Positions 1,433 to 7,042 of a stretch of 37,735 bases of DNA are shown here, in pieces. Source of the DNA: Candidatus Hebobacteria bacterium (GTDB lineage Bacteria; Armatimonadota; Hebobacteria; Hebobacterales; Hebobacteraceae). The notes below the pieces were generated by a model, which saw only the letters and a program-made list of their open reading frames with translations, did no database searches and was not told the origin of the DNA. Where the stretch lies: positions 1 through 37,735 of the forward strand of contig JALGXV010000004.1 in the NCBI GenBank assembly GCA_029821885.1, in the 5' to 3' direction. Numbering within the stretch: position 1 is the stretch's first letter; each line of letters opens with the position of its first letter. The position numbers and the translations under genes were made by a program.

Positions 1433-2260
1433 ATGCTGCCAACGATACGACTTGGGAACCATGACGTGACCCGCCTAATCTGTGGCGGAAACCCCATCAG
1501 CGGCATCTCCCACTACAGCTCCGAGATGGACCGGGACATGCTGTACTACTACACGATGCCGCGCCTCCAGGAACTTCTCGACGAGTGCTGGCGTCAAGGC
1601 ATCAACACGGTCCAGACCCGCGGCGACCGGCACACTATGCGCATGTACCTGGAGCACCGGGAGAACGGCGGCCGGATGCAGTGGATCGCCCAGACCGCGT
1701 CGGAGTTCGCTGACATCCACGCCAACATCGACCAGATCTGCGATTTCGAGCCGATCGCCATCTACCACCACGGCACCCACACGGACAACTCCTGGCACGA
1801 GGGGAAGATCGATCAGGTCGCAGACTACCTCAAGTCGATACACGACCGCGGCGTGGCCGCCGGAATCGGCACGCACATTCCAGAGGTGGTGGCCTACGCG
1901 GAGGAGCACAGCTGGGAAACGGACTTCTATATGTGCTGCTTCTACAACCTTGCGCGCGGGTACAAGGCCGCCCCCGCGGTGGAGAGGCATGCGTATGAGG
2001 AGGAGAGGTACCCGGAAGGCGATCCCGACCGGATGACGGCGGTGATGCGGGAAGTCAAGAAGCCCTGTCTGGGTTTCAAGCTCATGGCCGCGAACCGGAA
2101 GTGCGGCACTCCCGAATCCGTCCGCGCCGCTTTCGAATACGCTTTCGCCAACATCAAGCCCACCGACGGCGTCGTCGTGGGCATGTTCCCGAAGTACAGC
2201 AACCAGCCGGCCGAGAACGCAAAGCACGTCGCAGAGATAGTTGGCGCGAAGGTGGGTTGA
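1433..2260 (+). CDS. Aldo/keto-reductase-like TIM-barrel protein
   Basis: A 275-aa soluble protein starting MLPTIRLGNHDVTRLICGGNP, the opening strand pattern of aldo/keto-reductase-like barrels. The SD is GGAAGGA with short spacing. Later segments fit barrel strands: QGINTVQTR, GRMQWIAQT, EPIAIYHHGTH, GVAAGIGTHIPEV, TDFYMCCFYN, CLGFKLMAA and TDGVVVGMF. It is shorter than typical NADPH-dependent members (about 320 aa), and I do not see the usual Asp-Tyr-Lys-His tetrad clearly. It may be one of the barrel proteins of this superfamily common in environmental Planctomycetes and Armatimonadota without proven reductase activity. Its stop codon overlaps the -35 of the promoter for the next operon. 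Confidence 0.75.
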   Translation: MLPTIRLGNHDVTRLICGGNPISGISHYSSEMDRDMLYYYTMPRLQELLDECWRQGINTVQTRGDRHTMRMYLEHRENGGRMQWIAQTASEFADIHANIDQICDFEPIAIYHHGTHTDNSWHEGKIDQVADYLKSIHDRGVAAGIGTHIPEVVAYAEEHSWETDFYMCCFYNLARGYKAAPAVERHAYEEERYPEGDPDRMTAVMREVKKPCLGFKLMAANRKCGTPESVRAAFEYAFANIKPTDGVVVGMFPKYSNQPAENAKHVAEIVGAKVG

Positions 2261-2285
2261 CAGGCAAGCCGTCCGATGGTATCCT
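2257..2285 (+). promoter_or_regulatory. Extended -10 promoter of the attenuator/methyltransferase operon
   Basis: TTGACA (2257-2262), a 17-nt spacer and TATCCT (2280-2285) are preceded by TGG (extended -10). The -35 overlaps the stop codon of the upstream gene. Initiation is expected near 2292-2293, only about 6-7 nt before the ATG of a leader peptide at 2299. Confidence 0.65.
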
Positions 2286-2298
2286 CTGCCCCACTATC

Positions 2299-2406
2299 AT
2301 GCTGAGCAGCAGGCACATTACGAGCTACGACTTCCGCGCCCGAGCCATGTCTGTGTGTGTCCTCGCGCGCGCCATTGCCGCCATGCCTGCTGGTCTCGAC
2401 TCATGA
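2299..2406 (+). CDS. Putative regulatory leader peptide (35 aa)
   Basis: ATG at 2299 opens a 35-codon frame ending TGA at 2404-2406. It lies only about 6 nt downstream of the predicted transcription start and has no SD, so translation would be nearly leaderless. The peptide contains an Arg-Ala-Arg triplet (residues 13-15, in FRARAM) and a second Ala-Arg-Ala (23-25). Arg/Lys-X-Arg/Lys motifs are known macrolide-dependent stalling sequences in erm leader peptides. Codons 32-34 (GGT CTC G, 2392-2398) form the arm of an antiterminator pairing with 2436-2442. A ribosome at the stop codon would mask that arm, whereas one stalled near residues 13-17 would leave it free. Function is inferred from this geometry. 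Confidence 0.5.
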   Translation: MLSSRHITSYDFRARAMSVCVLARAIAAMPAGLDS

Positions 2407-2443
2407 TCTAGTTCAACGAATAACCAAGTCGTTTCCGAGACCA
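2391..2443 (+). promoter_or_regulatory. Antiterminator pairing competing with the downstream terminator
   Basis: TGGTCTCG (2391-2398) is fully complementary to CGAGACCA (2436-2443), 8 bp. The second arm includes GACCA (2439-2443), the first five bases of the terminator's 5' stem, so the two structures exclude each other. The first arm lies within the last codons of the leader peptide. Confidence 0.5.
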
Positions 2444-2479
2444 CAGGCAATCCAAAGAAGCCTGTGGTCTTCGCTTTTT
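2439..2479 (+). terminator. Intrinsic terminator/attenuator before the GNAT-methyltransferase gene
   Basis: GACCACAGGC (2439-2448) pairs perfectly with GCCTGTGGTC (2460-2469), with an 11-nt loop. The tail TTCGCTTTTT (2470-2479) follows. It sits downstream of its own promoter and leader ORF and immediately upstream of the SD (AGGAGGGG, 2481-2488). That position indicates attenuation rather than ordinary end-of-gene termination. Confidence 0.7.
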
Positions 2480-2493
2480 CAGGAGGGGAAGCC

Positions 2494-3759
2494 ATGCCGG
2501 AAGCACAGGTGCGACTCAGGCCGATAGCCGAGGCCGATCTGTCGGACTACGTCGAGTGGCTCAACGACGCTGAGGTGACGCAGTTCACGCATCTCGAGTC
2601 AGGAGGCGTCACGCTGGAGGGAGAGCGGGAGTGGTTCCAGCGCGTCACCGATCCGGATTCCAGGACGCGGAACTGGGCCATCGAGGCGGAGGGCCGGCAT
2701 ATCGGCAACTGCGCCCTCATGCCGGACGAATCCGGCGAAATCGCCGGCTTCGGGATCATCATCGGGGACAAGAGCCAGTGGGGAAAGGGATACGGCACGG
2801 CCGCGCTGCGAGAGGTGCTGCGGATTGGCTTTGAGGAGATGGGTCTCCAGCGCGTCCACCTGACCGCGTTTGCAGGCAATGCCCGCGGCATCAGGTGCTA
2901 CGAGAAGTGCGGCCTTCGGCGCGAGGGAGTGCGCCGCCGCCACTTCCTCAAGCGTGGGAGGTGGGAGGACGTCGTCTGCATGGGGATCCTGCGGCATGAG
3001 TGGGAGGCAACTGAGTTGGGCCTAACTCCTGGCGTAGAATGGCAGAATTGCCTAGATGCCCTTTCCCCGCAGCCAGGGGAGGTGGTCGTTGACGCTGGCT
3101 GCGGCGATGGACTGCCCGCATTGTTCATCGCCTCTCGCGTCGCGCCTTCCGGCCGCGTCATCGGGATTGAAGTGAATGAGGAGAGGGCTGAGAGAGCGAT
3201 CGAGCGCATTGCCGCGCGCGGTATGCAAGCCATCGCCTCGGTCCAACGCGGCGATATCCGGTCGCTGCCATTGCCTGCTGACAGCGTGGACGCCTGGTTC
3301 TGCCGCGAGACACTTGAGTACTTGGAGGACCCGATGCTCGCCCTTTCGGAGGCGATCCGCGTGGTCCGGCCAGGGGGGCGTGTGGTGGCGAATGAGGCCG
3401 ACTGGGACACACTCGCATACAACGCGACTGACAAGGCTGCCGAGCGCAAGTTCGTTGCGGTACACACGGATCACGGCGGCGGCCCGAGTGTCGACGGCCG
3501 CACTGGACGGAAGTTGCTCTCGTTGTTTCGAGAGGCTGGCTTGGCCGACGTCCGACTTGAGGTGCATGCGAATTGGAGCGACAAGTACTCGCCCGACGAG
3601 GACTATGTCTGCTGGCCCCTCAGGGAGGGGCACGTGCGCCGAGGCTGCATAACGCAGGAAGAGCTAGATGCCTGGCATGCCGACATGTCGGCGCAAGCGC
3701 AGCGAGGGCGGTACTTCCATTGCTTCAACTACTTCATCTGCGTCGGCAGAGCCAGATAG
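2494..3759 (+). CDS. GNAT acetyltransferase / SAM methyltransferase fusion
   Basis: ATG at 2494 follows AGGAGGGG with a 5-nt gap. An earlier in-frame start would sit inside the terminator and is rejected. The 421-aa product has two domains. Residues 1-170 are a RimJ/RimL-type GNAT: VRLRPIAEADLSDYVEWLND at the start, the acetyl-CoA loop QWGKGYGT (95-102), and the late NARGIRCYEKCGLRREG segment. Residues about 177-421 are a class I methyltransferase with motif I VVVDAGCGDG (197-206), an acidic residue ending the next strand (GIEVNEERAERA), and RVVRPGGRVV. GNATs acetylate amines on proteins or small molecules, and the fused methyltransferase suggests two-step modification of one substrate. The substrate is unknown. 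It heads an array of methyltransferases and is placed behind an attenuator. Confidence 0.88.
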   Translation: MPEAQVRLRPIAEADLSDYVEWLNDAEVTQFTHLESGGVTLEGEREWFQRVTDPDSRTRNWAIEAEGRHIGNCALMPDESGEIAGFGIIIGDKSQWGKGYGTAALREVLRIGFEEMGLQRVHLTAFAGNARGIRCYEKCGLRREGVRRRHFLKRGRWEDVVCMGILRHEWEATELGLTPGVEWQNCLDALSPQPGEVVVDAGCGDGLPALFIASRVAPSGRVIGIEVNEERAERAIERIAARGMQAIASVQRGDIRSLPLPADSVDAWFCRETLEYLEDPMLALSEAIRVVRPGGRVVANEADWDTLAYNATDKAAERKFVAVHTDHGGGPSVDGRTGRKLLSLFREAGLADVRLEVHANWSDKYSPDEDYVCWPLREGHVRRGCITQEELDAWHADMSAQAQRGRYFHCFNYFICVGRAR

Positions 3760-3818
3760 AGAGATATCGGCGCGTGAGCATCTATTCGCTTCGGACCACA
3801 AGCGAAGGGAGCCCGGCG

Positions 3819-4727
3819 ATGGACGCCAACCTTATGGACACTAACCTGGTCGAGAGACTCACCGACGGCATCTTCAGCAAGGCGCTGCAGGTGCGGCGGA
3901 TGATCCAGCGCGGCGCCACCGACCTGATGCACCTTCCGCTGGCCGAGATCGTCGCTCTCAGCGAACGCGTGGAGGCGCTGCTCACTCCACAGCAACTCGC
4001 CGAAGGCCTTGAGACCGTTGGCCGTCAGCGCTGGCACAAGCCCACCGTGGAGATGAGCGTCCGGGACGGCTACGCAGAATGGTCGAAGCAGTACGACGAG
4101 GAGCCCAACCCGCTGATAGCGTTGGAGGAGCCCGTCGTCCTCGAGCTGGTCGGCGATGTAGAGGGCAAGGACGTCCTCGACGCCGCCTGCGGCACGGGCC
4201 GCTATGCGCTCCTGTTCGCTGGGGCTGGCGCTCGCGTGTGTGGCGTCGACGGCAGCGAAGAGATGCTCACCCACGCCCGCAAGAAGACCGCCGACGGCGA
4301 CCTAACGCTCGATCTGCGGAATGCTGATCTGCACACTCTCCCATTCGAGGACGAGTCCTTCGACCTCGTGCTCAGCGCGCTGGCACTGTGCCATGTGCCA
4401 GACCTCAGTCCGGTGATGGCGGAGTTCGCCCGCGTCCTTCGTCCCGGCGGCCGTGTCGTCATCTCGGACTTCCATCCCTTCTGCCTGCTGATCGGCTGGC
4501 GGACCTGTTTCGACCGGCCCGAGGCCAGGTACTGGATCGAGAATCACTTCAACTTGACCGAGGAATACGTTCGCTCGCTGCTTGCGAGCGACTTTGAGGT
4601 GACCGATCTGCGCGAATCCGTCGTGGATGAGCGCGTCGCCGGCATCCTATCCGATCACGACATCGAGCGTTTCCGCGGCTGGCCCGCAGCGCTGGTTGTG
4701 GCGGCTACTCTGAAGGAGGGAGAGTGA
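3819..4727 (+). CDS. Class I SAM-dependent methyltransferase
   Basis: The start is ATG 3819 with GAAGGGA upstream. The frame is open further 5', but that extension is Arg-rich shadow sequence over the previous gene. The product is 302 aa. About 100 N-terminal residues are helical (ERLTDGIFSKALQVRRMIQRG) and precede a Methyltransf_11/25-type core. Motif I is VLDAACGTGRYA (119-130), then VCGVDGSEEMLTHARKK, NADLHTLPFEDESFDLVLSALALCHVPD, and the post-core strand RVLRPGGRVVISDFHPF. The core resembles small-molecule methyltransferases rather than rRNA Erm or tRNA enzymes. It is 59 nt downstream of the fusion gene and 1 nt upstream of the next, so probably co-transcribed. Confidence 0.88.
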   Translation: MDANLMDTNLVERLTDGIFSKALQVRRMIQRGATDLMHLPLAEIVALSERVEALLTPQQLAEGLETVGRQRWHKPTVEMSVRDGYAEWSKQYDEEPNPLIALEEPVVLELVGDVEGKDVLDAACGTGRYALLFAGAGARVCGVDGSEEMLTHARKKTADGDLTLDLRNADLHTLPFEDESFDLVLSALALCHVPDLSPVMAEFARVLRPGGRVVISDFHPFCLLIGWRTCFDRPEARYWIENHFNLTEEYVRSLLASDFEVTDLRESVVDERVAGILSDHDIERFRGWPAALVVAATLKEGE

Positions 4728-4728
4728 G

Positions 4729-5508
4729 ATGAAGCCCACCGTCAACCTATACGGAGACGAATGGAGCGCGGAGATCTACGACTATCAGGTGCAGAGCCTC
4801 GAGGATCTGCCGTTGTGGCAGTCGCTCGCGGAATCCGCGGGAGGGCCGGTGCTCGAACTCGCCTGTGGCACCGGACGGCTCGTATTGCCTCTCGCCCGCG
4901 CCGGCTTCTGCGTAACCGGCCTCGACGCGTCTCGATTCATGCTCGCAGTGGCTCGCCGGAAGCTCGCGCAGGAGGATCACGAAGTGCGCGCCCGGTGTCG
5001 TCTCGTCGAAGGCAATATGAGTGGTTTCACCTTTGAGGAGGGGTTCGACCTGATCTACGTTCCGGCCCGCTCCCTCCAGATACTGCTCACTCGCGATGAG
5101 CAGCGGAGCTGCCTTGAGTGCTGCGCGCGGCATCTGCTGCCGGAAGGGCTACTCGCGATCGATGTCTTCAATCCGATGCTCTCAAAGCTTCAAGCGCGGC
5201 GGGTAGAGGAGGGGCCAGACGAGTTCTCGGGCACTGACGGGACGCCTGTCAAATGGTCGGCCGTCACGGAATACGACCTTGCCGCGCACCGGCTGAGCTC
5301 GGCGTGGCGATATGGGCACGGCAACGCAGGGGGCGCGGCCGCGGCGAATGAGTACTCGCTGGAGATGCGCTACTTCTTCCGCTTCGAGATGGAGTGGATG
5401 CTGGAAGCATGTGGGTTCGCGGTCGAGGCACTGTATGGCAACTTCGACCGAAGCGAATTCGCGGCCGACAGCCCGGAGATGATCTTCGTGGCCAGGAAGA
5501 CGCCATGA
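4729..5508 (+). CDS. Class I SAM-dependent methyltransferase, paralogue A
   Basis: A 259-aa protein whose ATG lies 1 nt after the preceding TGA, with GAAGGAGGG ahead of it. It begins NLYGDEWSAEIYDYQ, typical of the Methyltransf_25 group. Motif I is VLELACGTGR (41-50), followed by VTGLDASRFMLAVARRKL, then LVEGNMSGF and FDLIYVPARSLQILLTRDEQ. The C-terminus ends SPEMIFVARK. The next gene shares the same order of blocks (AxAR...LLTREDQ...YDR...ERMIFVARK), so the two are clearly related, probably from a tandem duplication. The acceptor substrate is unknown. Confidence 0.88.
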   Translation: MKPTVNLYGDEWSAEIYDYQVQSLEDLPLWQSLAESAGGPVLELACGTGRLVLPLARAGFCVTGLDASRFMLAVARRKLAQEDHEVRARCRLVEGNMSGFTFEEGFDLIYVPARSLQILLTRDEQRSCLECCARHLLPEGLLAIDVFNPMLSKLQARRVEEGPDEFSGTDGTPVKWSAVTEYDLAAHRLSSAWRYGHGNAGGAAAANEYSLEMRYFFRFEMEWMLEACGFAVEALYGNFDRSEFAADSPEMIFVARKTP

Positions 5509-6302
5509 CAGAGGAGATGCCGCGCCGAAGGCAGTCGCTGAGGCGCTTCTTCAACGACATTACCCCTCTGGTATATGACCTGCAGTTCGCCCCGGACGCA
5601 CCTGATGTGGCGTTCTGGGTCGAGCTGTGTCGCGAATGCCGTGGCCCGGTGCTCGAGCTTGGCTGCGGTACGGGACGAGTCAGCATTCCGCTTGCTCGTG
5701 CTGGACTCGAAGTGGTTGGCGTCGACCTGGCGGAGCCTATGCTCGCGGTTGCACGGCAGCGGCTTGAGGCCGAGCGCATCGAGGTCCGCCGACGCGTTCA
5801 GCTGGCGCGAGCAGACATGCGCGACTTCAGAACGGACACCACGTTCGCCTGCGCCATCATACCCGCGAGCACTTTCGCTGTACTGCTCACGCGGGAGGAC
5901 CAGGAGAGAGCACTGGGCAACATCCACGCCTGTCTTAGAGGCGAGGGACGCCTTGGTTTCGACGTGCGCATCTTCGACGAATGGATACAGAGCGGCCGGC
6001 TCCCGCCGATGCGGCGCGCGTCGCCCGACGGACGGGTCGATTTCACGGAAGAGAGAAGCTTCGAGTTCGATCCATCCACGCGGGTGAGCAGGGCGACCAT
6101 CACCTACACCTTCCATACACCAGACTACCTGGGCTCAGTGACGGAGACCATAGAGGGTCTCGTGCTGTCACAGGCAGACGTGGAGGACGTTCTGGCGAGC
6201 ACTGGTTTTGTCGTCACAGCCGTCTGGGGGGACTACGACCGGGCGCCACTGGAGCCGGAGAGTGAACGGATGATCTTCGTTGCGCGGAAGGAGCAGCCAT
6301 GA
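5505..6302 (+). CDS. Class I SAM-dependent methyltransferase, paralogue B
   Basis: ATG 5505-5507 overlaps the previous stop (ATGA), indicating translational coupling. I rejected the upstream extension of the frame because it runs inside the previous gene. The product is 265 aa. Motif I is VLELGCGTGR (49-58), then VVGVDLAEPMLAVARQRL, LARADMRDF, and ASTFAVLLTREDQERAL. The C-terminus is WGDYDRAPL...SERMIFVARK. The overall length and block order match paralogue A. The segment TPLVYDLQFAPDAPDVAFWVEL near the N-terminus is probably the substrate-side lid and differs from paralogue A, which may mean a different acceptor. Confidence 0.88.
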   Translation: MTEEMPRRRQSLRRFFNDITPLVYDLQFAPDAPDVAFWVELCRECRGPVLELGCGTGRVSIPLARAGLEVVGVDLAEPMLAVARQRLEAERIEVRRRVQLARADMRDFRTDTTFACAIIPASTFAVLLTREDQERALGNIHACLRGEGRLGFDVRIFDEWIQSGRLPPMRRASPDGRVDFTEERSFEFDPSTRVSRATITYTFHTPDYLGSVTETIEGLVLSQADVEDVLASTGFVVTAVWGDYDRAPLEPESERMIFVARKEQP

Positions 6303-7042
6303 GCGAATCGGACTTCGATGACAGCCAGGCCTACTTTGCCGCCATCGCCGAGAGCTATGACCGGCTTCAGCCGGTGGTCGTCGGTCCGGCCTACCAGGCC
6401 GGGCTGGACTTCATGCTCGAGCTCATCCCACACGGACCCGACGATGCCTTCGTGTGTGTGGAGCTTGGCTGTGGGACGGCCGTGCTGGCGGAGGGTGTGC
6501 TGGAGCGATTTCCGGCGGCCAGGTGCATCGCGATGGACAATGAGCCGGCAATGCTCGAGATTGCCGGAAAGAAGCTGGCCGCCCATGGCGACCGGGCCGA
6601 GGTCCGCATGGCCGAGGCGGCGACGGCGGAGATGCCTGAGTGCGAAGTCGTCTTGTCATCCTTCGTGCTGCACCACGTGCCGCCCGAGGACCTGCCGGGG
6701 TTGTTGGGCCGCACGGCGGCCGCGCTCACGTCTGGCGGCTGTGCCATCATACTCGACACGATGGAGGCAGGGCCGCGCTGGGGCGAACAGATAGGAGCGG
6801 CCAGCGGCCACCTGTACCGAGCACACGTGCAGGCGGCGATCGCATCGGGCCGCGCCACACAGGACGAGATCGACGGCCGGTGGGCGTTCAAACGGAAGAT
6901 GAAAGAGGAGGGGCGAGATGTCGAGCACTCCCACTCGGCCGGAGACATCATGGCAGCGATGTCTGTGGCGGGATTTGACGAAGTGGGGCTTGTTTGGCGA
7001 CAGTTTGCGTTCACGATCGTGATGGCGTTCCTGCGGCCATAG
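6299..7042 (+). CDS. Class I SAM-dependent methyltransferase
   Basis: A 247-aa protein whose ATG 6299 overlaps the preceding TGA (ATGA), so it is coupled. It begins AYFAAIAESYDRLQP. Motif I is CVELGCGTAVLAEGVL (about 54-69), a slightly divergent version (GCGTA instead of GCGTG). Then come CIAMDNEPAMLEIAGKKL, VVLSSFVLHHVPPEDL and GGCAIILDTME. It is less similar to the two paralogues upstream than they are to each other. It is the last gene of the run; 228 bp and a new promoter separate it from the MscS gene. Confidence 0.87.
   Translation: MSESDFDDSQAYFAAIAESYDRLQPVVVGPAYQAGLDFMLELIPHGPDDAFVCVELGCGTAVLAEGVLERFPAARCIAMDNEPAMLEIAGKKLAAHGDRAEVRMAEAATAEMPECEVVLSSFVLHHVPPEDLPGLLGRTAAALTSGGCAIILDTMEAGPRWGEQIGAASGHLYRAHVQAAIASGRATQDEIDGRWAFKRKMKEEGRDVEHSHSAGDIMAAMSVAGFDEVGLVWRQFAFTIVMAFLRP

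Follow-up and report, generated by a model that had tools for sequence, protein, structure and literature searches.

An operon that begins with a fused acetyltransferase-methyltransferase gene lies near the start of a 37,735-nucleotide stretch of contig JALGXV010000004.1, here called the window, from a Candidatus Hebobacteria bacterium whose nearest named relative is Candidatus Hebobacterum abditum. Between the operon and its promoter are a short open reading frame (ORF) and an intrinsic terminator. Whether these parts work together as a switch, and what such a switch would sense, is the question addressed here.

Leader anatomy at 2257-2493

The promoter (2257-2285, plus strand) combines TTGACA (2257-2262) and TATCCT (2280-2285) at a spacing of 17, carries an extended -10 TG and is predicted to start transcription at about 2292-2293. 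It was the only sigma-70-like site between 1500 and 5000, for which shuffles averaged 0.5. On the same strand, the leader ORF (2299-2406) has 35 codons, encodes MLSSRHITSYDFRARAMSVCVLARAIAAMPAGLDS followed by a stop, and is predicted to be effectively leaderless; its stop lies 19 nt past the start of the arm-2 core. The terminator stem is formed by GACCACAGGC (2439-2448) and GCCTGTGGTC (2460-2469), and a T5 run follows at 2475-2479 (plus strand). The Shine-Dalgarno (SD) sequence of the first structural gene, AGGAGGGG, occupies 2481-2488 (plus strand). A simple terminator scan missed this terminator because it considered loops of at most 8, whereas the loop here is 11. The promoter, the 35-codon ORF, the terminator and an 8-bp alternative pairing had been proposed in an earlier note on this DNA, and each was found in its place.

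Four RNA arms, all on the plus strand, could be assigned. Arm 1 (2304-2315, GAGCAGCAGGCA, core CAGCAGGCA at 2307-2315) pairs in the OFF state with arm 2, its partner sequence being TGCCTGCTG..CTC. Arm 2 (2384-2398, TGCCTGcTGGTCTCG) comprises the final codons of the leader ORF and can pair with arm 1 or arm 3. Arm 3 (2436-2449, CGAGACCACAGGCA) pairs with arm 2 as the antiterminator or with arm 4 as the terminator, and arm 4 (2460-2473, GCCTGTGGTCttcg) is the terminator 3' arm. The 8-bp pairing of the earlier note, TGGTCTCG (2391-2398) with CGAGACCA (2436-2443), is the first block of a longer helix. A second block joins TGCCTG (2384-2389) to CAGGCA (2444-2449), so that the bases pair as claimed but the full antiterminator (2384-2398 with 2436-2449) has 14 bp with one bulged C between the blocks. 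It therefore sequesters the terminator's 5' arm completely, and not by half as had been supposed. This full antiterminator, arm 1 and the existence of a multi-gene family were all absent from the earlier note, which also did not bring out the importance of a near-leaderless start.

The pairing of arms 2 and 3 reached -26.0 kcal/mol, and none of 300 leader shuffles did equally well. The minimum-energy fold of the free RNA was exactly 1:2 plus 3:4, that is, OFF, and the predicted fold became 2:3 once the 5' part was removed and arm 4 was not yet made. As predicted from these pairings, arm 1 completes a trp-type 1:2 / 2:3 / 3:4 switch. In the free RNA, the leader start codon also pairs with the stop-codon region (2296-2301 with 2402-2407), and a similar start-to-stop pairing was predicted for leaders of genomes G002 and G003 and for those of methyltransferase family a (MTa). 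Upstream, an ORF of 275 codons (1433-2260) ends with a stop codon that overlaps the -35 box of the attenuator promoter. This ORF had no Pfam or NCBIfam match and adjoins the operon in G001 as well.

Downstream genes and recurrence of the cassette

The first structural gene (2494-3759) encodes a fused GNAT (Acetyltransf_3) and class I SAM methyltransferase. Four methyltransferase genes follow on the plus strand, at 3819-4727, 4729-5508, 5505-6302 and 6299-7042, of which the last two each overlap the end of the preceding gene. In what the earlier note called a GNAT-methyltransferase operon, the leading GNAT and methyltransferase are one fused protein, followed by four methyltransferases to 7042. 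Five consecutive methyltransferase domains or genes (2494-7042) therefore stand in one operon behind a single attenuator. For the GNAT domain of the fused protein, the nearest solved structures included SpeG-type and AAC(6')-type enzymes, and its resemblance to SpeG and AAC(6')-Ib scored below the family cut-offs. Because none of the operon GNAT and methyltransferase proteins passed a curated NCBIfam cut-off among the matches listed, we infer antibiotic modification from the type of enzyme and the mode of control. The operon methyltransferases are not recognised rRNA methylases. PADLOC matches (mad2) were set aside, as they probably reflect no more than the shared methyltransferase fold. G001, G003, G008 and G012, together with a second locus in G002, retain the operon content, with genes gained, lost or differently fused. 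G010 and G012 have the GNAT joined to a YpeA-like GNAT instead (L073, 1661-2704; L074, 1623-2627); in G000 and G002, a YpeA-like GNAT of similar kind is a separate gene with an attenuator to itself.

The same succession of promoter, short ORF, arm 2, arm 3 and arm 4 stood upstream of orthologues of the GNAT-methyltransferase (89, 83 and 65% identical) and, in other genomes, of shorter GNAT orthologues. Since a search of the window's own genome with the leader DNA returned only the leader itself and chance matches, the class was searched with patterns and with a covariance model, which was built on 11 leaders and run over 14 genomes of the class and 291 of the phylum. Seventeen complete leaders were found, in eight genomes of one Armatimonadota class. 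A further copy in G002 is partly N-masked, and one in G004 is cut by a contig end. The genes behind the 17 leaders encode GNAT (8), MTa (2), methyltransferase family b (MTb, 3), YpeA-like GNAT (3) and an AP_endonuc_2-type TIM-barrel protein (1). The GNAT orthologue is preceded by the cassette in all eight genomes and other genes are so in four of them; the latter cassettes are confined to G000, G001, G002 and G003, members of a single family. A search by promoter geometry without the arms recovered two further members, and TTGACN-17-TANNNT also stands upstream of related leaders. In the phylum scan of 291 genomes there was no full-length match outside the class; the sole match there, in G028, covered the terminator half only and was rejected. 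Extra matches to looser palindrome patterns proved on reading to be chance palindromes or coding sequence.

The cassette is kept from the same genus to other families while the spacer between the leader stop and arm 3 diverges. Between G000 and G001, identity was 58% in this spacer, 100% in arm 2 and 97% in the terminator, and arm 2 was the best-conserved part of the leader. At the level of sequence, recurrence in 17 complete leaders of eight class genomes confirmed that the arrangement is beyond chance. A plain intergenic terminator whose pairings are due to chance, with the operon promoter lying elsewhere, is accordingly hard to credit. It is true, by reasoning only, that any terminator 3' arm repeats what an antiterminator arm needs; but this would leave unexplained why the whole cassette, promoter included, is found repeatedly upstream of non-homologous genes and why arm 2 is the most conserved element.

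Six SD-led leaders were left out of the count of 17, as they apparently form a separate family. These leaders have TTGACA-17-TATAxT, a strong SD (AAAGGAG) that folds back on the last part of the leader ORF, together with a terminator of the CCAC(A/G)GGC..CTGTGG type. They occur in L097 (1400-1650, G002), in L098/L099 and L066/L070 (G001/G000 in each pair) and in L094 (G003), upstream of rsgA in one genome and of secreted proteins in others. L198 matched the SD-leader pattern, and no such cassette was present in the stretch read.

Leader ORF and competing pairings

The leader ORF starts 9-13 nt past the -10 box in 16 of the 17 leaders (exactly 9 in 11 of them), which leaves no room for an SD sequence; the leader of G008 is SD-led. 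The 16 leaders are thus predicted to be effectively leaderless, the transcription start itself being a prediction. The ORFs have 30-37 codons, all 17 are open to arm 2, and their stops fall 16-33 nt past the start of arm 2, between arms 2 and 3. From dinucleotide shuffles, the chance of such an ORF end is about 0.15 for each leader, and the product is about 1e-14 before allowing for relatedness, as the leaders are not all independent. This bears on the possibility that the element is a ligand riboswitch or responds to a protein-dependent antiterminator, the ORF being incidental. The core arm-3 sequence, CCACAGGC, is identical before unrelated genes, as such a reading would have it. The consistently open ORF speaks against it, as does the lack, by inspection, of a conserved aptamer-like core outside the arms and of any Rfam match, either at the gathering threshold or at E values up to 5, and we regard it as improbable.

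Arm 2 lies in phase 2 of the leader frame in 13 leaders, in phase 0 in G007_GNAT and G002_GNATb, and in phase 1 in G000_GNATb and G001_GNATb. As all three frames are used, it is the RNA that is conserved and not the peptide. Close leader pairs of equal length differed by 15 nonsynonymous and 4 synonymous codon changes, a ratio that we take to be about that expected without selection on the peptide. No amino acid reached 1.6-fold enrichment in the pooled leaders over shuffled leaders, and Arg made up 14.0% of residues against 12.9% in the shuffles. Given the three frames, the neutral-looking drift and the lack of strong enrichment, the leader ORF appears to serve as a ruler for ribosome position whatever its own sequence.

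These results also bear on two proposals about the signal. The earlier note had pointed to an Arg-X-Arg motif, RAR, which is indeed present at residues 13-15 of the leader peptide, and had proposed stalling by a ribosome-targeting compound or a shortage of tRNA. Sequence-specific arrest of an Arg-X-Arg nascent peptide, occurring only with particular drugs such as macrolides, would fit RAR in G000 and G001, RVR in G007 and the Arg-rich leaders before GNATb. Yet beyond the window leader RAR occurs only in the same-genus genome, most other leaders have no R-X-R, and R/K-X-R/K occurs in a minority of leaders. With Arg not enriched over shuffles, nonsynonymous changes prevailing and arm 2 in three frames, such arrest is unlikely. 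An attenuator of the his, trp or cys type, sensing starvation for an amino acid or charged tRNA, would share its topology with trp, but the leaders have no codon run or strongly enriched amino acid and the downstream genes are not for amino-acid biosynthesis, which makes it very improbable.

The matching of arms 2 and 3 was better than in leader shuffles (p<=0.05) in 16 of the 17 leaders, the exception being G002_TIM. Counting of 2:3 pairs revealed two-sided changes at 3 pairs and a covariation of 0.070, compared with 0.032 in shuffled leaders. Changes are matched across arms 2, 3 and 4 in the GNAT (GGUCUC/GAGACC/GGUCUUC), MTa (GGUCG/CGACC/GGUCG) and GNATb (GUGGC/GCCAC/GUGGC) leaders, the pattern expected if one arm pairs with two others in turn. 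The pairing of arms 1 and 2 gave p=0.036 at the window leader and p<0.05 in 8 of the 15 leaders tested from the leaderless group; arm 1 is absent from G008, whose leader has an SD-like site. The mutually exclusive 1:2, 2:3 and 3:4 pairings were thus found across the family, with 2:3 significant in 16 of 17 leaders and 1:2 in about half. Conservation of both the leader ORF and the alternative pairing in relatives, which the earlier note had asked for, supports its central proposal that transcription is attenuated through a translated leader, the position of the ribosome selecting the structure.

To model the switch, the RNA was folded with a simulated ribosome at each codon. With arm 4 unmade, early ribosome positions favoured 2:3, and 2:3 was lost in most leaders when the ribosome stood in the last 8-10 codons, whereas the RNA without a ribosome folded to the terminator (0.70-1.00). 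G002_GNATb barely switched. The dependence of switching on the stall position is, in this sense, a computed property. In the fully equilibrated RNA, 3:4 is often preferred over 2:3, which would require the switch to act co-transcriptionally, as known attenuators do. The window leader and several GNAT leaders have good U-tracts (T runs of 4-8 in G000, G001, G007, G008 and G012). Those of the MTa, MTb and GNATb leaders are weak, and termination is therefore uncertain there; these members may terminate poorly or may use a translational step. In L092, L093, L085, L138, L111 and L075, a CATTTC tail replaces the long U-run a few nt past the terminator stem.

Matches to TTGAC-18-TANNNT followed by ATG at 8-13 nt numbered 16-19 per genome, against 0-2 for the reversed pattern (G000, G001, G002, G010 and G012), and several of these sites precede full-length genes. 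It suggests that leaderless starts are common in the class.

Proposed mechanism and comparison with known systems

The anatomy of the cassette, its conservation, its competing pairings and a leader ORF in register with arm 2 are evident in the leaders themselves. Their best explanation, which we consider likely, is a ribosome-mediated transcription attenuator of trp-type topology that most likely senses elongation slowed by ribosome-targeting antibiotics. Transcription would begin a few nt upstream of the leader AUG, so that the RNA would be near-leaderless and ribosomes would enter at its 5' end. A ribosome that translates to the stop would cover arm 2, 3:4 would form and transcription would terminate; if no ribosome is loaded, 1:2 and 3:4 would form and transcription would terminate too. 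When a ribosome is held within about the first 23 codons, arm 1 would be occupied or isolated. Arm 2 would then capture arm 3 before arm 4 is made, and the polymerase would enter the GNAT-methyltransferase operon. Because the leader peptide is not conserved, general slowing of elongation is the most likely signal; the inducers are probably ribosome-targeting antibiotics, and the induced enzymes probably modify ribosome-targeting compounds. More tentatively, and with limited confidence, the class may possess a regulon of its own, in which near-leaderless, peptide-agnostic leader ORFs measure elongation speed, intact 70S ribosomes load independently of SD-led initiation, and mix-and-match acetyl- and methyltransferase operons are switched on against ribosome-targeting compounds.

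In the E. coli trp attenuator, arms 1:2, 2:3 and 3:4 alternate, a ribosome at the leader stop covers arm 2, and an untranslated leader also terminates. The Armatimonadota cassette has the same arms, the same masking of arm 2 at the stop and the same predicted termination when untranslated. Unlike trp, its leaders have no run of codons for a single amino acid, are near-leaderless and control acetyl- and methyltransferases. Leaderless mRNAs are for the most part initiated by 70S particles, close to the 5' end (PMC9031893). Leaderless transcripts are common in mycobacteria, for which Cys-rich small upstream ORFs have been put forward as attenuators (PMC4633059). What the two cases share is a sensor in the form of a small upstream ORF and a lineage that translates leaderless mRNAs, the latter being a prediction in our case; the mycobacterial ORFs sense cysteine through poly-Cys, whereas the Armatimonadota leaders have no Cys enrichment.

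The closest functional parallels are resistance genes. The ARE-ABCF genes vmlR and cplR are controlled by antibiotic-induced, ribosome-mediated attenuators (PMC9226507, PMC10201436), and there, as proposed here, the translation status of an upstream ORF (uORF) sets premature termination before a resistance gene, although the resistance role of our genes is putative. Their uORFs have a conserved consensus of 3-4 codons, whereas those described here have 30-37 codons with no conserved peptide, in another phylum and before other genes. The yxjB (tlrB) leader of B. subtilis controls a tylosin-induced 23S rRNA methyltransferase (PMC6851288), so that drug-stalled leader-peptide attenuation of a methyltransferase would be shared, with drug induction presumed in our case. 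The yxjB leader differs in its NusG-dependent pausing and tylosin-dependent stalling, and our methyltransferases are not recognised rRNA methylases. At the toiL uORF of E. coli topAI-yjhQ, several classes of ribosome-targeting drugs stall ribosomes at different places (PMC12121999). One uORF answering several such classes is what we would expect of the Armatimonadota leader, but toiL acts on translation and Rho, and the Armatimonadota leader would act on an intrinsic terminator.

A literature search returned no report that joins Armatimonadota, attenuation and a leader peptide. The cassette would bring an uncultured phylum into the known range of resistance-like genes under ribosome-mediated attenuation, and its acetyl- and methyltransferases are flagged as candidate antibiotic-modifying enzymes by their regulation and not by sequence similarity. 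As a natural family in which the RNA arms are conserved and the peptide drifts, it would allow peptide-specific and peptide-agnostic drug sensing to be separated. Antibiotic-responsive uORF attenuation is already well described for ARE-ABCF genes, yxjB and toiL, and the Armatimonadota cassette is a well-supported variant of it.
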